34,845 nucleotides of DNA from Chitinophagaceae bacterium (GTDB taxonomy: Bacteria > Bacteroidota > Bacteroidia > Chitinophagales > Chitinophagaceae): positions 1 to 34,845 of the forward strand of contig CANGGD010000011.1 of NCBI GenBank assembly GCA_947453295.1. The letters run 5' to 3'. Of the stretch, positions 26,907 through 34,634 are shown in pieces (the stretch's first letter is position 1; the number at the start of each line of letters is the position of its first letter). Below the pieces are notes generated by a model. The model was not told the origin of the DNA. It ran no database searches and saw only the letters and a program-made list of their open reading frames with translations. The position numbers and the translations under genes were made by a program.

Positions 26907-27596
26907 TTAAATGCTTTTATTCTTATAGAATTCATATCCTGCAATATTCATCATAATCAATAGCATGCCATAAAATATATCCTCAAAAGGAATGCTATAA
27001 ATTCTATAATCAAGATTTTCATTATTGTTGTAAAGTACCACTGGTATTGAAGTTAGAAAACCGTTAACAATCAAAAAAGGTATAAGTATGATTAAATAAG
27101 AAATCAAAAAAGCGTTTACGTTAAAGGAATAAAAATACTTTTTTGCAGATGCCAGAATAAAAATAAAGAGTCCATTGAAGAAGAAAGTAAAGAAAGTATA
27201 ATCTTTATTGTGATTGAGCAATGCAAGAAGTAACAAAATAAAGCCTAGCAATTTCAATACAAATAAACCAGACTGAGTTTGTTGAATTTTTGGAAAATAA
27301 ATTCTTACACATTCATAAATAAAAACGCAACAATAAGGAACCACAAAAAAGAACAGTACTTCTTCAATAGGTAAATTATATATTTTTATCCCTGTTATAT
27401 AGTTTTCATTAAAACTCCAAACGCCTTGTTTAGTAAATACCATATCCCAAATGATATAAAACAAAGCAGGCGCAAGCATTCCAATAAATAAATGTTTCCA
27501 GCTTTTATAAAAGGCTACTTTTTTATCGAAACTCAATATTAGCGGTCCAATTAATGAACCTGCAAGAATTAGAAAGTATGTGTAGTGTGGATTCAA
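26907..27596 (-). CDS. crtYcd: Lycopene beta-cyclase, fused CrtYc-CrtYd type
   Basis: The 229-residue membrane protein has six or more helices and two copies of the cyclase signature: PIEEVLFFFVVPY (76-88) and PFEDIFYGMLL (203-213). In actinobacteria these halves are separate subunits (CrtYc, CrtYd); here they are fused, as known in Bacteroidota and archaea. The enzyme closes beta-ionone rings on lycopene-type ends. The start is a TTG at 27596, because the in-frame TAA is just upstream and the next Met lies past the first helix. It is separated from crtZ by a 394-base repeat array, although all other crt genes are tightly packed, so it may be expressed separately or at a lower level. Confidence 0.9.
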   Translation of the reverse strand: MNPHYTYFLILAGSLIGPLILSFDKKVAFYKSWKHLFIGMLAPALFYIIWDMVFTKQGVWSFNENYITGIKIYNLPIEEVLFFFVVPYCCVFIYECVRIYFPKIQQTQSGLFVLKLLGFILLLLALLNHNKDYTFFTFFFNGLFIFILASAKKYFYSFNVNAFLISYLIILIPFLIVNGFLTSIPVVLYNNNENLDYRIYSIPFEDIFYGMLLIMMNIAGYEFYKNKSI

Positions 27597-27637
27597 TAAA
27601 AATTAATTCAAAATTTAAAATATTTTCTCTTTTTTAC

Positions 27638-27990
27638 TTTTTTCATTTACAAAATTCATCATTGCCCCCTTGCGTTCCTTGCGTGAAAACAATTTTTCAC
27701 TTTTTACTTTTTACTTTTTACTTTTTTCATTTTTCATTTTTCATTTACAAAATTCATCCTTGCCCCTTTGCGTTCCTTGCGTGAAAACAATTATTTACTT
27801 TTTACTTTTTACTTTTTACTTTTTTCATTTACAAAATTCATCCTTGCCCCTTTGCGTTCCTTGCGTGAAAACAATTATTTACTTTTTACTTTTTACTTTT
27901 TACTTTTTACTTTTTTCATTTTTCATTTACAAAATTCATCCTTGCCCCTTTGCGTTCCTTGCGTGAAAACAATTATTTACTTTTCCATTC
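27638..27990. repeat. Four 51-bp repeats separated by (ACTTTTT)n-type heptamer tracts
   Basis: A 51-bp sequence starting CATTTACAAAATTCATC and ending GCGTGAAAACAATT occurs at 27644-27694, 27742-27792, 27826-27876 and 27924-27974. The last three copies are identical and the first differs at two bases. Spacers of 47, 33 and 47 bases consist of ACTTTTT and CATTTTT heptamers. Start-to-start distances are 98, 84 and 98, all multiples of seven. Inside the core TTGCG occurs twice (TTGCGTTCCTTGCG). The array fills the gap between crtZ and crtYcd and reaches the crtZ stop codon. Long plus-strand frames here arise from the repeats. No IS ends or transposase are seen. Confidence 0.9.
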
Positions 27991-28470
27991 TCACTTTTTA
28001 CTTTTCAATTCATTATCTCTCCTCACTTTATCCCAGTATTTTTTTGCAACAAGCAACATCCCAAAACTTTCACCATCTTCTTTTCCTAAATTTTTGTGAT
28101 GCATTTTGTGTGCCCAACGAATTGTTTTTACATAGGTGTTATTGCTTCTTGTAAACCATTTAAATCTTTGGTGTATAATAACTTCATGAACTATAAAATA
28201 CCCAAGCCCATACATTAAAATTCCAAAGCCAATTGCAGCTACCCAATAAACATGATGTTGTAATCCTAACATAATACATAACCAACTAGGCACAGCGAAT
28301 ATCAAAAAGAAGGCGTCATTTTTTTCAAAAAAACCCGGGCTAGGCTGGTGATGATCTTCATGTAAATACCATAAAAAACCATGCATAACATATTTGTGTG
28401 TAAGCCATGTAATACCTTCCATGATAAAGAAAGTAAGTAAAACAATTCCAATAAAAATTAGCATATTCAT
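27991..28470 (-). CDS. crtZ: Beta-carotene hydroxylase
   Basis: This 159-residue di-iron membrane hydroxylase carries all four histidine clusters: HKYVMH (25-30), HEDHH (37-41), HEVIIH (95-100) and HKMHH (121-125). CrtZ adds 3-hydroxyl groups to beta-ionone rings. Its ATG overlaps the end of the cruF-like gene by 4 bases, implying translational coupling. The last codons (KSKK then TGA) are built of AAAAGT-type sequence resembling the adjacent repeat array, so the repeat may have altered the extreme C-terminus. Confidence 0.95.
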   Translation of the reverse strand: MNMLIFIGIVLLTFFIMEGITWLTHKYVMHGFLWYLHEDHHQPSPGFFEKNDAFFLIFAVPSWLCIMLGLQHHVYWVAAIGFGILMYGLGYFIVHEVIIHQRFKWFTRSNNTYVKTIRWAHKMHHKNLGKEDGESFGMLLVAKKYWDKVRRDNELKSKK

Positions 28471-29171
28471 ATTAAAGTTCTTAGTAACAAAAAAAACATC
28501 ACTTGAATCATCAACAAATGTAACGCGAATTTATTTCGTTTATCAAATTTGAGTTGATGGAAAATAAAAAGTAAAAATAAACTTACAAGAAACCAGCAGA
28601 CATAATTAAAAAAAGGTACTGCCCCATCTCCTCCCCATTTCCAATAGCCTAATTTAATAGCAATCGGTTCCATTATCCAATCAAAAAAAACAGCCAATGT
28701 GGCGCCGTCTATAACTAGAGACAATAGTTTAATAATTGGTTTTTTATTATTTGTTATTGTATTTATTTGATCAACCATTTTATGTAGAAGAATATTCATG
28801 CTGATTCCTGCACAATAAATTATCATAAACCAATTAAGGCCTATAATATAAGGCACATTCATAAAGGTGGGGCCTAATACTGTTCCATATGAATAATTGC
28901 CAAATAAAATGCCCGTTTTTGTTCCAATAATTTCAACTAGTATGCCTGTTACAAAGCAGCTTATGATAAAAAACAAGAAACTTTTATTAATACTGTTTTG
29001 TGTAAACAGAATCAATAAAAACATTAGCAATAGATTCAAAGAAGTTGTTTGAGCAAAAAAAGATTTATCAAAAAACAATATCCCTATCAATCCAATTACA
29101 TGAAAAAGTATGGCTATAAAAGTTGCAATTTGAATTCTTGTAACACTAAATCCTAATACTTTATTTTCCAT
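28467..29171 (-). CDS. cruF: CruF-like carotenoid 1,2-hydratase (DUF422)
   Basis: The 234-residue protein has about seven membrane helices and the family segments EIIGTKTGILFGNYSYG, NVPYIIGLNWF and DWIMEPIAIKLGYWKW. The family includes CruF and the bisanhydrobacterioruberin hydratase, which add water across the terminal double bond of an acyclic (psi) end to give a 1'-hydroxyl. It overlaps the upstream desaturase gene by 11 bases and crtZ by 4 bases. In this context it would act on the uncyclised end of a monocyclic carotenoid. The assignment as hydratase rests on family and neighbours. Confidence 0.85.
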   Translation of the reverse strand: MENKVLGFSVTRIQIATFIAILFHVIGLIGILFFDKSFFAQTTSLNLLLMFLLILFTQNSINKSFLFFIISCFVTGILVEIIGTKTGILFGNYSYGTVLGPTFMNVPYIIGLNWFMIIYCAGISMNILLHKMVDQINTITNNKKPIIKLLSLVIDGATLAVFFDWIMEPIAIKLGYWKWGGDGAVPFFNYVCWFLVSLFLLFIFHQLKFDKRNKFALHLLMIQVMFFLLLRTLI

Positions 29172-30645
29172 ATTCAGCTTTTATAATTTCAGAAGCGATT
29201 GATGCACTTTTCAAACAAAGAGGAATTCCTCCGCCTGGATGAACAGTTCCACCACAAAAATAAAGACCTTTTAGTTTTGATGTAAAATTTGCTGGTCTAA
29301 AAAATGCTGCAAACTTTGAGTTAGAGCTGGTTCCATAAAGTGATCCTTTAAAGGTTCCTGTTTTATTTTCAATGGTAATTGGATCCATGATCGTTTCTGT
29401 GACAATATATTTTTCAATATCAGTATTTAAAATCCTGTTTATTTTTTTTATAACTGATTCACGGATTGCTCTTACAATAGCATTCCAGTCTTGACCAACA
29501 TTTGCGGGCGCATTTATCATTACAAACCAATTTTCGCATCCCTCTGGTGCTTGATTGGATTCCATTTTGGAAGTGATGTTGATATAGATTGTTGGATCAT
29601 TATAAATTGTTTGACGCTCAAATAAATGTTCAAATTCTTTTTTATAATCTTGAGTAAATAAAATATTATGTAAGTCTAGTTGTGGGAATGATGTATTAAT
29701 TCCCCAGTAAAATATTAAAGCACTGCTACTTCTTTCGAGATGTAAAAGTTTTTTTGTTTTTGTGGTGTCATTCAATAAGTTTTTATACGTGTAAAAAACA
29801 TCTCCGTTACTAACAACAAGTGTCGCATTAATAACTTTTGAATTTGTTACAATGCCTGTTACTTTTTTATTATGATGATTTATTTTTTCTACTTTATGAT
29901 TAAAATGAAAACACACTCCTTTTTTTAATGCAAGTTGGTAGAGTGCATTAGTAATACTAATCATTCCACCATATGGATAAAAAGTGCCTTCATTCTGTTC
30001 TAAATGAGGAATCAAGCTTAACATGCCTGGCGCTTTATAAGGGTTGCTGCCATTATATGTAGCGTATCTATTGAAAATTTGAATAGCTTCTTCAGATTGA
30101 AATGAACTTTTGTTGTGTTGATGTAAACTACCAAATAGATAAGAATACTTTACAGTGGTAAGCGCCTTGAATATTCTTTTATGAAACCAGGTTGATTTTT
30201 TGTGTAATGAATTGTTTAAAAATATTGTACCTACATTTTTATAAAGTATGGCTGCTTTGTTCAAATAGTTTGTTATTGATTCAGTGTTTTCGTTTAATTG
30301 AGTCTTAAATTCCTGAATTAATTTTTCTCTGTTTGTATAAGCATTTATTTTTTTACCATTTTCAAAAAAATAATTACAAGCAATATCTACAGGTTTATAT
30401 TTAAAATAATCGTCAATGTGTTCCTCAGCAAGATCGAAAAGCTCTTCAATGTTTTTGGGTTGAGTAAAGAGCGACGGGCCGGCATCAAATTTATACCCAT
30501 CATTTTCAAAAAATGACAATTTGCCTCCAGGATAATCATTCGCTTCGTATACATCCACATTAAAGCCTTGAATAGCCAATCTGATTGCGCAAGCCATACC
30601 AGCAATGCCGCTTCCAATTATAATTGCTTTTTGATCTTGCATCAT
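29161..30645 (-). CDS. crtD: CrtI-family carotenoid desaturase, probable CrtD (3',4'-desaturase)
   Basis: The 494-residue flavoprotein has an N-terminal dinucleotide-binding motif (IIIGSGIAGMACAIRLA), PGGKLSFFENDGYKFDAGPS, and the C-terminal segment GGTVHPGGGIPLCLKSA, which is typical of CrtD and second CrtI paralogues. The true phytoene desaturase downstream of the sigma gene instead has TVPGPGVPP. With CruF present, the expected reaction is 3',4'-desaturation of a 1'-hydroxy psi end, as in myxol and saproxanthin synthesis. It begins ATG ATG 46 bases after crtB. Another substrate in the desaturase series cannot be excluded from sequence alone. Confidence 0.85.
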   Translation of the reverse strand: MMQDQKAIIIGSGIAGMACAIRLAIQGFNVDVYEANDYPGGKLSFFENDGYKFDAGPSLFTQPKNIEELFDLAEEHIDDYFKYKPVDIACNYFFENGKKINAYTNREKLIQEFKTQLNENTESITNYLNKAAILYKNVGTIFLNNSLHKKSTWFHKRIFKALTTVKYSYLFGSLHQHNKSSFQSEEAIQIFNRYATYNGSNPYKAPGMLSLIPHLEQNEGTFYPYGGMISITNALYQLALKKGVCFHFNHKVEKINHHNKKVTGIVTNSKVINATLVVSNGDVFYTYKNLLNDTTKTKKLLHLERSSSALIFYWGINTSFPQLDLHNILFTQDYKKEFEHLFERQTIYNDPTIYINITSKMESNQAPEGCENWFVMINAPANVGQDWNAIVRAIRESVIKKINRILNTDIEKYIVTETIMDPITIENKTGTFKGSLYGTSSNSKFAAFFRPANFTSKLKGLYFCGGTVHPGGGIPLCLKSASIASEIIKAEYGK

Positions 30646-30691: not shown

Positions 30692-31531
30692 TTAATTTAA
30701 AATACTAAGCTTACTTTTTATTCTTGCATTAAAAACAATAACAGCTTTTAATAAATCTGGGATTCTTATTCTTTGTTCTAATATTTCAGCAGGTTTTAAT
30801 TTTGTTATCTTTTGAAATAATTTTAAATAATAGCAGTAAGCAACATAAACACCCAATCTTGCTTTTATGGGAAGTTGTTTAATCCCTTCTAAAGCATTTT
30901 TAAAATCACTTTCAATATCTTCTTCAATTTGCTTTTTTTGTTTGTCTGAAAAATCATTAAAATCAATTCCAGGAAAATAAGTTCTTTTCAATATTTCAGA
31001 ATCTGCTTTTACGTCTCTTAAGAAGTTTACTTTTTGAAATGCAGCTCCTAACGATTTTGCATAGGGTTTTAAATGTTGATATTCTTTTTCGTTACCATTA
31101 CAAAAAACATATAAACACATGAGTCCTACTACTTCTGCGCTACCATAAATATATTTTTTGTATTCGTCTTCATCGTAGGTTTTTTTATTCAAGTCGAAAG
31201 ACATGCTTGCAAAAAATGCATCTACTAATTCGATATCAATATTATATTCATTCACCACTAGTTGAAAACTATTCAAAATTGGGTTTAAACTAATTTTATT
31301 GTTGAATGATTCATAGGTTTCATTTTTGAATTTTTCGAGCAATTCATATTTATCATGCGAGTGAAAACTGTCAACAATTTCATCTGCAAATCTTACAAAA
31401 CCATAAATATTATAAATAGGCGTATGAAGATCTTTATGGAGCATACGAATGGAGCTACTAAAAGAAGTACTGTATCTTTCTGTAGTTAATTTGCTGCATT
31501 CGGCAGAAACTTGATTAAATAGAGATGACAT
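30692..31531 (-). CDS. crtB: Phytoene synthase
   Basis: This 279-residue squalene/phytoene synthase condenses two GGPP to phytoene. Both Mg-diphosphate motifs are visible: DEIVD at 50-54 and DVKAD at 173-177, together with FLRDVKADSEILKRTYFP and the YGSAEVVGLM segment. It starts one base after the crtI stop, so the pair is translationally linked. No GGPP synthase (crtE) is in the window and it must be supplied elsewhere. Confidence 0.95.
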   Translation of the reverse strand: MSSLFNQVSAECSKLTTERYSTSFSSSIRMLHKDLHTPIYNIYGFVRFADEIVDSFHSHDKYELLEKFKNETYESFNNKISLNPILNSFQLVVNEYNIDIELVDAFFASMSFDLNKKTYDEDEYKKYIYGSAEVVGLMCLYVFCNGNEKEYQHLKPYAKSLGAAFQKVNFLRDVKADSEILKRTYFPGIDFNDFSDKQKKQIEEDIESDFKNALEGIKQLPIKARLGVYVAYCYYLKLFQKITKLKPAEILEQRIRIPDLLKAVIVFNARIKSKLSILN

Positions 31532-31532
31532 T

Positions 31533-33014
31533 TTATTTGAATCTTTTTAAAATTTCTTTGGAAACAACCTCTCCGCTAATTAAAGACGGAGGCACTCCTG
31601 GTCCGGGTACAGTTAATTGACCGGTATAATACAAATTACTGATTTTTTTGCTTTTCAAGGAAGGTTTTAAAATTGAAGTTTGCATCAAAGTATTTGCTAA
31701 GCCATATGCATTGCCTTTAAAAGCATTGTAGTCATTTTTAAAATCTTGAGTTGCGTACGATTTTTTGTAAATGATATGATCAGTTACATTTTGTCCAATC
31801 TTTATTTCGTAGCGTTGTATGATTTTCTGAAAATACTTTTCTCTTAAAGCCTCGTCATCTCCATCAAGTCCGGCGGCCACAGGTATTAAGAAAAATAAAT
31901 TTTCGCAACCAGAAGGAGCCGCTGAATCGTCAGTTACAGAAGTGGCACTAACGTAAAACAAAGGCTCTGATGGCCACTGAGGATTGTCGTAAATTTCTTC
32001 ACCATGAAGTTGAAAATCCACATCAAAAAATAAGGAATGATGTGTTATGTTTTCAAGTTTTTTATTTAGTCCTACATAAAACAGAATGCAAGACGGAGCC
32101 ATTACTCTGCTTTGCCAATAATTATTGGAATAAGATTGATATTTTTTTTCTATTAAATTAGTCTCTATAAAATGATAATCAGCTCCTCCTATTATAATAT
32201 CTGCATCGTAATTGATTAATTCATTGTTATGAATAGCTGTAACATTTTTTGCCAAACCATTTTCAATATTGATTTTTTTTACATCGGTATCAAACTGAAA
32301 CTTCACTCCTAATTCTACTGCCAATTGATGCATTGCATCAACAATTTGATACATGCCTCCTTGAGGGTACCATGTACCTAATTTAATATCTGCGTAATTC
32401 ATTAAACTATATAATGCAGGAATTTTACTAGGTAAGGCTCCCAAAAACAAAACTGGAAATTCTATCAACTCAATCAACTTTGGATTCGAAAAATATTTTC
32501 TTACATGTTTTTTCATGGAAGTAAATACATCCAACTTAAGTAGTCCTTTTGCTAAATCAATATCTAAAAACTCAGATAACTGTTGGCCAGGTTTATGTAC
32601 CAATTTATTGATGCCAATTTCATATTTATAATGTGCTTCTTGTAAAAATAAATCAAGCTGATTAGCGCTTCCTTTTTCTATGGATTCAAATAAAGTTTTT
32701 AATGCAGAATAATCAGCAGGGATATCCATTGGCGCATCTGGATAATAGACTCTATAAGAAGGATCAAGTCTTATTAAGTTATAATAATCTGATACTTTCT
32801 TGCCAAAGCAATTAAAATATCGCTCAAACACATCGGGCATCCAATACCAGCTTGGGCCCATATCAAAAGTAAAACCTTCAGCTGAAAATTGACGTGCTCT
32901 ACCACCAGGCATAGAATGTTTTTCAAGAACAGTAACTTCACAATTTTGTTTAGCTAAAAAACTTGCGGCAGACATACCAGCAAAACCACTACCAATAACA
33001 ATTATTTTTTTCAC
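31533..33014 (-). CDS. crtI: Phytoene desaturase
   Basis: The 493-residue FAD enzyme has the Rossmann motif IVIGSGFAGMSAASFLA near the N-terminus, MPGGRARQF, GFTFDMGPSWYWMP, and the C-terminal signature TVPGPGVPPSLISG. This is the bacterial CrtI type that converts phytoene to lycopene in four steps. The start is a GTG at 33014; no ATG is available before the essential GSG motif. It lies 39 bases after the ECF sigma gene and is immediately followed by crtB. I see no strong separate promoter in the short gap, so it may be read from the sigma promoter. Confidence 0.94.
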   Translation of the reverse strand: MKKIIVIGSGFAGMSAASFLAKQNCEVTVLEKHSMPGGRARQFSAEGFTFDMGPSWYWMPDVFERYFNCFGKKVSDYYNLIRLDPSYRVYYPDAPMDIPADYSALKTLFESIEKGSANQLDLFLQEAHYKYEIGINKLVHKPGQQLSEFLDIDLAKGLLKLDVFTSMKKHVRKYFSNPKLIELIEFPVLFLGALPSKIPALYSLMNYADIKLGTWYPQGGMYQIVDAMHQLAVELGVKFQFDTDVKKINIENGLAKNVTAIHNNELINYDADIIIGGADYHFIETNLIEKKYQSYSNNYWQSRVMAPSCILFYVGLNKKLENITHHSLFFDVDFQLHGEEIYDNPQWPSEPLFYVSATSVTDDSAAPSGCENLFFLIPVAAGLDGDDEALREKYFQKIIQRYEIKIGQNVTDHIIYKKSYATQDFKNDYNAFKGNAYGLANTLMQTSILKPSLKSKKISNLYYTGQLTVPGPGVPPSLISGEVVSKEILKRFK

Positions 33015-33053: not shown

Positions 33054-33548
33054 TTAATAACGATTGATTGATTCTTTCAATAATTTTCGTGCGAAATGGA
33101 TTCTACTTTTTACCGTACCGAGAGGCTCTTGTAAATAATCAGCAATCTCATTGTATTTATAGCCTTCATAAAATAGTATAAAAGGGTGCTTGAAAATATC
33201 GGGGAGCTTAGTTATTACATCATGAATTTCTTTCAATCTAATTTTTGATTCGGCTTCATTTTTTACAGCAGATTGATTATGATCCAAGAAAAAATCATTG
33301 CTTGTGTGATCTAACACAACATTTTGTCTAGCTTTTTTTCTGTAATCATTAATAAAAATATTTCGCATGATGGTGTACATCCATGCTTTAAGATTGGTGC
33401 CTACGTTATATTTTTCCTTATTGGCTAAGGCTCTGTAAAGTGTTTCTTGAGTAAGATCTTTTGCAGATTCGTAATCTTTTGTAAGAGTTAAAGCAAAAGG
33501 CTTTAAAAATTCAACATTTGAAACAAGCATTTTTTCAAATTCTTTCAT
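33054..33548 (-). CDS. ECF-type RNA polymerase sigma factor of the carotenoid cluster
   Basis: The 164-residue protein has sigma region 2 (about 10-75; LTKDYESAKDLTQETLYRA, then NLKAWMYTIMRNIFINDYRK) and region 4 (about 105-160; LPDIFKHPFILFYEGYKYNEIADYL, then GTVKSRIHFARKLL). The frame can be extended to a TTG at 33578, but that codon lies in a TAnnTTTG promoter element and adds an unconserved stretch. The ATG at 33548 begins a normal ECF N-terminus. No anti-sigma gene is adjacent. The gene between a cobalamin-binding MerR regulator and crtI recalls LitS with LitR in Streptomyces and CarQ in Myxococcus, so it is probably the activator of the crt genes. Confidence 0.92.
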   Translation of the reverse strand: MKEFEKMLVSNVEFLKPFALTLTKDYESAKDLTQETLYRALANKEKYNVGTNLKAWMYTIMRNIFINDYRKKARQNVVLDHTSNDFFLDHNQSAVKNEAESKIRLKEIHDVITKLPDIFKHPFILFYEGYKYNEIADYLQEPLGTVKSRIHFARKLLKESINRY

Positions 33549-33550
33549 AA

Positions 33551-33619
33551 TATTATTGTTTAACTTTTGATTGCCCAAAGCTAAACAATAATAATGTAAT
33601 TGTCGGTATTTTTGTTTAA
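33551..33619 (-). promoter_or_regulatory. Sigma-gene promoter with inverted and direct operator-like repeats
   Basis: On the minus strand TAGCTTTG (33583-33576) is an exact TAnnTTTG element, 27 bases before the ATG at 33548. It is bracketed by a perfect 12-bp inverted repeat: TATTATTGTTTA at 33551-33562 and TAAACAATAATA at 33582-33593, with 19 bases between. One arm overlaps the TA of the -7 element and the other ends two bases from the start codon. A third copy, TTAAACAAAAAT on the minus strand (33619-33608), lies upstream. This is a candidate operator for the MerR-type regulator encoded next door. Confidence 0.6.
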
Positions 33620-33637
33620 TTTTTTTTGAAAAAGATT

Positions 33638-34516
33638 CTACAATTCAGCTATAAAGCTCATTACTTCAGATATATTCTTTTTAATTACAACAGGACTTTG
33701 AATTTTTTTCTCATAATTATGGGTAATTAGCCCAGAAATTATACAAGGGGTATCAGACAGATTTTTAGATATATTCCCCATAAATTTTTCAAAATTAAAA
33801 TTAGTGGCGGGCCGAGTTATATGGCAATATAAATAATCTGGCTTCTTCACTTTAACGACATATCCAACATCTGCTAAAGGCACATTACAACCTAAATAAA
33901 TAACATTTATACCTCTATTCTTTAAAAGATAGTACATGAACAACAATCCTAATTCGTGATATTCTGCCTCTGGTAAAAAAAGGAGTACTGTTTTATTTAT
34001 TTTTAGTGGAGTGGTAAGATTGTCTATACCTACTATTAATTTTTGTCTAATAATATTTGTAACTAGATGTTCTTGAGCTGGATTAATATGATTGGTAAGC
34101 CATAAAATTCCAATTTTTTCCATGTATTGAAAGATGACTTGTGTAATTGTTTTTTCTATGCCTTTGGAAGAAATATAGTCGGTGATGGTGTTTTCAAAGC
34201 CTTCAACATTCAAATCAATCATATATTGAACCAGTTCATTTACGATTCTTTCGAGCTGTGCTTCATTTTGACTAAGAGAAAAAACTTTTTCTGCGATTTC
34301 TGGTTCAGACATTTTATCAATATGAGAAATCTTGAAACCGTATTTATTTAATAATGCAATGTTTAGAATTGTTTTAAGTTCCTCATTAGTGTAATATCTA
34401 ATATTTGTGAAAGTTCTTTTGGGTTTGAGAAAATTATAACGTTGTTCCCAAATTCTTAAGGTATGGGCTTTAATGCCGGATAAATTTTCGAGGTCTTTGA
34501 TGGTAAATGAGTTCAT
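33638..34516 (-). CDS. MerR-family regulator with cobalamin-binding domain (CarH/LitR-like)
   Basis: The 292-residue protein has a MerR winged helix (about 4-70; IKDLENLSGIKAHTLRIWEQ, RYY), a helical-bundle domain and a C-terminal B12-binding fold. Trp139 is followed after nine residues by Glu149-His150, the W-x9-EH motif with which CarH covers the upper face of adenosylcobalamin. EYHELG (185-190) supplies His187 as the lower axial ligand, and GINVIYLGCNVP continues the B12 fold. CarH-type proteins bind DNA as tetramers in the dark and dissociate when light breaks the Co-C bond. Position ahead of the sigma and crt genes fits a light-responsive repressor. The gap to the sigma gene is 89 bases. 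Light sensing is inference from motifs. Confidence 0.9.
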   Translation of the reverse strand: MNSFTIKDLENLSGIKAHTLRIWEQRYNFLKPKRTFTNIRYYTNEELKTILNIALLNKYGFKISHIDKMSEPEIAEKVFSLSQNEAQLERIVNELVQYMIDLNVEGFENTITDYISSKGIEKTITQVIFQYMEKIGILWLTNHINPAQEHLVTNIIRQKLIVGIDNLTTPLKINKTVLLFLPEAEYHELGLLFMYYLLKNRGINVIYLGCNVPLADVGYVVKVKKPDYLYCHITRPATNFNFEKFMGNISKNLSDTPCIISGLITHNYEKKIQSPVVIKKNISEVMSFIAEL

Positions 34517-34536
34517 AATAATGCTATTACCTTTAA

Positions 34537-34563
34537 AAACAAATGTTTTATCAATTTGTTTAA
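34537..34563 (-). promoter_or_regulatory. Inverted repeat upstream of the merR gene
   Basis: AAACAAAT (34537-34544) and ATTTGTTT (34554-34561) form a perfect 8-bp inverted repeat with a 9-base spacer, 21 bases before the ATG at 34516. It contains the same TTAAACAA core (minus strand, 34563-34556) as the repeats at the sigma promoter. On the minus strand AACATTTG (34547-34540) is a one-mismatch -7 element inside it. This suggests autoregulation but is short for AT-rich DNA. Confidence 0.45.
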
Positions 34564-34604: not shown

Positions 34605-34634
34605 AACAGCCCACCATTTAAATGGTGGGCTGTT
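34605..34634 (-). terminator. Rho-independent terminator between the T9SS cargo gene and merR
   Basis: A 30-bp perfect palindrome with arms AACAGCCCACCATTT and its complement forms a stem with a GCCCACC core. On the minus strand it is followed by a T-rich stretch. It lies about 20 bases beyond the stop at 34656, so it ends the upstream T9SS gene and insulates the carotenoid regulatory region. Confidence 0.85.

Follow-up and report, generated by a model that had tools for sequence, protein, structure and literature searches.

The DNA analysed here, referred to as the window, is the whole 34,845 nt of contig CANGGD010000011.1 (C11), one of the 173 contigs of the 2.08 Mb assembly GCA_947453295.1 from a Chitinophagaceae bacterium. 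On its minus strand, a gene for a MerR-type regulator is followed by those for an extracytoplasmic function (ECF) sigma factor, crtI, crtB, crtD, cruF, a CrtZ-like hydroxylase and a lycopene cyclase (Table 1). An earlier note, made from the sequence alone, had suggested that the regulator is a B12-dependent photoreceptor, with an ECF sigma factor next to it and crtI-crtB beyond; this order was confirmed by matches to Pfam (Sigma70_r2, Sigma70_r4 and SQS_PSY) and to the NCBIfam CrtID model, and the layout is real and conserved among relatives. The closest named of these are mostly Chitinophagaceae metagenome-assembled genomes (MAGs), followed by Ferruginibacter and Sediminibacterium records. 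A contig titled as a Streptomyces griseus MAG (L003) encodes a MerR 80% identical to that of the window, and this record is probably mislabelled.

Table 1. Features of the carotenoid locus, with coordinates as positions in the window
Feature	Coordinates	Strand	Evidence or remark
merR, CarH/LitR-like regulator with winged helix-turn-helix and B12-binding subdomains, 292 aa	33638..34516	-	Residues, alignment, Pfam/NCBIfam, predicted fold
ECF sigma factor, 164 aa from ATG 33548; crtI follows with no gene in between	33054..33548	-	Pfam Sigma70_r2 and Sigma70_r4
crtI, phytoene/3,4-desaturase type	31533..33014	-	NCBIfam CrtID, 730 bits (cut-off 640)
crtB, phytoene synthase family	30692..31531	-	Pfam SQS_PSY
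crtD, 1-hydroxycarotenoid 3,4-desaturase	29161..30645	-	NCBIfam, 625 bits (cut-off 500)
cruF-like carotenoid hydratase	28467..29171	-	Pfam Caroten_synth; NCBIfam CruF models under cut-off
CrtZ-like hydroxylase	27991..28470	-	Name inferred from position and sequence; 0 family matches
Lycopene cyclase	26907..27596	-	Lycopene_cyc, CarR-type domains
Candidate operator TGTTTA-N19-TAAACA before the sigma gene	33557..33587	-	Sole exact copy in the genome under study
TAGCTTTG, Bacteroidota-type -7 box	33576..33583	-	Overlaps the 5' half of the operator
TTAAACAA, lone upstream half-site	33612..33619	-
TTAAACAA-N13-TTGTTTTTA before merR	34534..34563	-	Degenerate copy of a conserved ECF-promoter-like element
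Intrinsic-terminator hairpin between merR and its upstream gene	34605..34634	-

Residues 3-217 of the regulator align to the CarH photoreceptor of Thermus (3whp, E 6.8e-18; 5c8d, E 8e-18), and alignment, Pfam and predicted fold together give the class I architecture of CarH/LitR proteins, composed of a MerR helix-turn-helix domain with four-helix and Rossmann B12-binding subdomains; the Pfam MerR_1 and B12-binding_2 models score above their cut-offs. W139, E149, H150, E185 and H187 fall on CarH W131, E141, H142, E175 and H177, and these residues, as well as G190 and the W-x9-EH spacing, are all at the positions, and match the CarH residues, that the earlier note had assigned. Conservation was counted in two sets of homologues, totalling 182 aligned sequences. 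The first, biased towards near relatives, consists of the best 80 of 308 confirmed places, 29 further loci and the window itself, giving 110 rows and 105 distinct proteins once the window's own copy (L001) had been removed; the second comprises 72 usable rows, a partial sequence (L221) having been removed, and was hand-picked for other families and paralogs, hence its proportions are not those of a random sample. The five aligned residues are invariant in 110/110 sequences of the first set, the window included, as are the Wx9EH motif and the E and H of the lower-ligand motif D/ExHx2G/P (E185-x-H187-x-x-G190 in the window), whilst position 190 is Gly in 103/110. The DNA-recognition stretch R-x-W-E-x-R-Y is near-invariant in the same set.

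Nine of the 110 loci in the first set lack a merR-sigma gap with both genes in the same orientation; of the remaining 101 gaps, 96 contain the inverted repeat TGTTTA-N14-22-TAAACA, where first-order Markov shuffles of those gaps lead to an expectation of 0.19 loci. The preference for spacing is the strongest control: across the 110 loci, N18 occurs 79 times and N19 75 times, with all other spacings from 10 to 30 accounting for 14 sites together. The 154 N18/N19 sites are distributed with 131 in the merR-sigma gap, 22 before merR and one before the sigma gene, and an exact operator is present within the gap or up to 300 bp before merR at 99/110 loci. In 97/101 gaps a -7-like box is fused with the 5' half of the repeat; that of the window was named using TAnnTTTG, which we take to be the Bacteroidota -7 consensus. 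The window operator ends 8 bp ahead of the sigma ATG, and the equivalent distance to the first ATG is 2-9 bp at 90/96 sites. This ATG is probably the true start of the sigma gene, because the alternative TTG at 33578 falls within both the operator and the -7 box. A second full operator is found in 35/101 gaps, lying 55-57 bp upstream in 34 of them. That the window copy is unique in its genome proves nothing alone, since a reversed control pattern matches three places; the argument rests instead on place and conservation. Amongst 20 more distant Bacteroidota loci, an exact site adjoins merR or the sigma gene in ten, and lies 1.2 kb away in one more. The operator accompanies merR regardless of what gene comes next, be it sigma, crtI or merR itself, and its half-site, TAAACA, agrees with the TnnACA half-sites of CarH operators given in the available part of PMC9304148. 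The simplest reading is that the window MerR would bind this repeat. In two genomes the exact pattern was also seen in the intergenic region next to a gene that reads as a primary sigma factor (L202:1790-1820 and L205:1595-1624).

We give a probability of about 0.6 to MerR being a CarH/LitR-like, adenosylcobalamin (AdoCbl)-dependent dark repressor of the sigma-crt operon that is released by light, the layout being probably that of a CarH-like dark repressor acting on such an operon. In the dark, AdoCbl-bound MerR would occupy the inverted repeat, and with it the -7 box and the region where the sigma gene starts, so that neither sigma nor the crt genes lying in the same direction could be transcribed. 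Light would break the Co-C bond, MerR would leave the DNA, and the sigma-crt operon would be transcribed. The sigma factor may then use a promoter before merR, resulting in negative feedback. Support for this reading comes from what the sequences show, namely the domains, the predicted fold, the conserved residues, an operator specific in both place and spacing, the gene order and the B12 genes. AdoCbl binding and a light response by the window MerR are likely, and repression by MerR and feedback by sigma are likewise what we infer from sequence.

A number of observations weigh against this reading. The Pfam model for the Rossmann B12-binding domain scores 20.4 bits on MerR, below its cut-off of 32.1, and the NCBIfam CarH equivalog NF052513 scores 101.5 bits, not reaching its cut-off of 400. 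Of the SignatureFinder light-responsive signature (GxxW, EH, GxxH and GxxxP), the window protein has GxxW, EH and GxxxP, whilst GxxH reads AxxH, Gly being present in 76/110 of the first set; the positions that we take to be those of the Arg and Asp forming the CarH dimer salt bridge are Tyr and Asn. At the level of DNA, the exact operator is missing from 5/101 gaps and 11/110 loci, and its whole-genome totals exceed those of the reversed control only modestly, being 80 against 48 for 23 genomes that carry the regulator and 15 against 9 for eight that lack it. Compared by eye, the 11-bp direct-repeat consensus nnnnTnnACAn of known CarH operators is not matched, the half-sites being inverted and separated by N18/19. 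CrtID is also encoded by three of the eight family genomes that lack the regulator.

The main correction to be made to the earlier note, which also counts against the favoured reading, concerns the upper histidine of the light state. The residue following the Trp is Leu140 where Thermus CarH has His132, and His is found at this position in 0/182 sequences (0/110 in the first set and 0/72 in the second), the first set having L in 54, I in 19, M in 13, V in 12, Q in 11 and S in one. The 'intact photochemical residues' of the earlier note are therefore not borne out as written. With no His here, a bis-His light state is excluded at this position, but light sensing itself is not; judging from the alignment, the light state must be stabilised otherwise than by the bis-His state of Thermus CarH. 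In the parts of the relevant papers available to us, His132 is described as being present in many, but not all, CarH homologues (PMC9304148), proteins that have Arg, Gln or Tyr there are reported to respond to light (PMC11796333), and the H132A mutant of Thermus CarH is found to stay mostly tetrameric in light, contradicting an earlier report (PMC10442372).

Retention of the B12-binding residues was compared with linkage to carotenoid genes in the second set, a copy being considered linked when a crt gene lies within 2.5 kb. W, EH and the lower His are intact in 25/25 linked copies, whereas of 47 unlinked copies 34 are intact and 13 are changed at at least one of these (Fisher 0.003, which overstates independence because ten of the 13 are related). 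Those ten belong to a single family (f18, L239-L248), with H150 replaced by Asn or Ser and H187 by Gln; none has an exact operator or a crt gene in its neighbourhood, two have a sigma match nearby, and their genomes still encode CrtID elsewhere. Another f18 copy, L140, has its B12 residues intact, and the remaining three changed copies are L216, L220 and L236. In the ten f18 copies the Trp is still present and the DNA-binding wing is similar; they may represent a B12-independent branch. A second lineage of CarH-like MerR proteins (L212-L219) has W-x9-EH in 8/8 members, ExHxxP in 6/8 and a different wing, of the RKESKHRYY type. Its merR genes are placed at around 3.2-4.4 kb of their loci, where 0 exact operators and no adjoining crt genes were seen; six of the eight (L214-L219) adjoin genes that read as encoding a signal peptidase and a deaminase. 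In the window genome's own family, CrtID scores above its cut-off in 25/27 genomes with a MerR match (G159 and G189 matching weakly), the two without CrtID being G191 and G152. A PduO-type adenosyltransferase is encoded on contig C106 of the genome under study and in 58/60 family genomes searched, this one included, and the genome under study has one cobalamin riboswitch, before what reads as a TonB-dependent receptor gene.

These data bear on whether the signal is light at all. MerR might be a cobalamin-binding repressor of the sigma-crt operon that senses the supply of AdoCbl or B12, in which case AdoCbl would be photolysed but, without His132, the oligomer would stay on the DNA. The absence of the upper His from all 182 sequences and the largely tetrameric state of the illuminated H132A mutant (PMC10442372, in part) both fit this, as does an exact operator 8 bp before a cobalamin adenosyltransferase gene in one genome (L191:1447-1477); yet even allowing one mismatch, no operator was found in the other nine of ten adenosyltransferase regions examined, that of the window genome ending at a contig edge. 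The W and E that contact the light-labile adenosyl group are invariant in 110/110 sequences, the variants at position 132 in the accessible portion of PMC11796333 respond to light, and carotenoids are an output suited to protection against light. We consider a supply sensor unlikely. It is less probable again that the protein is a B12-independent repressor resembling CarA of Myxococcus xanthus, its B12 domain being a structural leftover and a light or oxidative signal arriving by another route. Loss of B12 residues has evidently occurred in 10/11 f18 copies of the second set (all but L140), and the authors of a study on Chryseobacterium lacus found light-induced zeaxanthin but, in the text available, no car or lit genes (PMC7064467); however, crt-linked copies retain W, EH and the lower His without exception, all five residues are kept throughout the first set, and CarA, a CarH-like repressor of carotenoid genes, is B12-independent and reported as having no Trp in the part of PMC9304148 available to us, whereas the window MerR keeps it.

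The direction of control has also to be considered. Classic MerR activators bind between the two promoter boxes, whilst the window operator lies over the -7 box and ends just short of the sigma ATG, which is the position of a repressor. Activation of the sigma gene by MerR in the light, in the manner of Streptomyces LitR on litS, thus seems very improbable, even though the accessible text of PMC12705666 describes activated LitR as promoting litS transcription, amid both repressor and activator roles for the protein. The earlier note had drawn derepression from the LitR/LitS layout. Of its interpretation, the CarH-type domains and fold, the conserved AdoCbl contact residues and the ECF sigma gene before crt are supported, and the repressor-style operator on the sigma promoter fits derepression, but the layout alone is not proof of it, because LitR is so described as an activator of litS in the light. 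The two systems share a MerR-B12 regulator, an ECF sigma factor and crt genes as kinds of gene, which does not imply a common origin of LitS and the window sigma factor, and they differ in that the window operator overlaps the promoter core.

Under the favoured reading, of a light-released dark repressor, the sigma factor would transmit the signal, and its place can be judged from loci that lack it. At L145, merR directly adjoins crtB and no sigma gene was found at the locus; at L149, the operator lies between merR and crtI, the nearby sigma match being just 25% and on the opposite strand; and at L144, L148, L151 and L152, merR is immediately before crtI, with no sigma match and an operator at one mismatch. 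From such loci, the sigma factor looks like a relay added to a regulator-crt arrangement. An element approximating TTAAACAA-N13/14-TTGTwwTA precedes merR in 32/110 loci using a strict pattern, against 0.02 expected and with 0 matches elsewhere across 2.7 Mb with both strands counted; this pattern does not match the degenerate window copy. A stricter pattern gave four matches in 24 whole genomes, three of them before merR, while its reversed control gave eight. Across the 110 loci the element sits before merR rather than crtI, and it has an AAC-type -35 look, which we take to be the mark of an ECF promoter; feedback of the sigma factor on merR through this element is hence possible. Gaps between sigma and crtI have a median of 47 bp and a maximum of 336 bp (97 loci), and so have little room for an anti-sigma gene, no search for one having been made elsewhere. 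At five loci (L054, L055, L062, L079 and L088), a GC-rich hairpin seen by eye between sigma and crtI has TTAAACAA within its loop and resembles a terminator or attenuator. Further downstream, the stretch that separates the hydroxylase gene of the window from its lycopene cyclase gene has tandem repeats (27623-28005) with units of around 84, 98 and 182 bp, which yield spurious-looking open reading frames on the plus strand.

The window regulator is a variant within the CarH/LitR kind and not a new kind. The closest known systems include CtMerR of Chloracidobacterium (PDB 8JBS/8JBT) and CarH (LitR) of Thermus thermophilus (PDB 5C8D/5C8E/3WHP). With Thermus CarH it shares domain order, predicted fold, W-x9-EH, ExHxxG, the TnnACA half-site and a carotenoid target; it differs from it in having Leu in place of the light-state cobalt ligand His132 and Tyr/Asn at the Arg/Asp positions, an operator of inverted half-sites set 18-19 bp apart where Thermus has 11-bp direct repeats, and an ECF sigma factor placed between regulator and enzyme genes. 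Judging by titles and abstract starts among the matches listed, no paper that describes a CarH/LitR photoreceptor in Bacteroidota was found in the open literature searched, and 'Bacteroid' is absent from the main texts of PMC11796333, PMC9304148, PMC8156234, PMC9758184 and PMC6739363. The 1561 signature-bearing sequences mined in PMC11796333 may include Bacteroidota, to go by the part available, and an excerpt of PMC11855829 mentions, for Nonlabens, the MerR gene of the cluster.

A broader proposal, to which we give slightly less than even odds, is that Bacteroidota possess their own branch of B12 photoreceptors, which would sense light without a bis-His cobalt switch, use a distinct inverted-repeat operator and, in several families, be wired to an ECF sigma factor feeding back on the receptor gene, with copies away from the carotenoid locus having lost B12. 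If true, B12-based light control of pigment would reach into a large group of bacteria that are abundant in water and soil, and these natural proteins, with their defined operator, would allow CarH-type DNA release to be probed without the histidine thought to drive it in Thermus.
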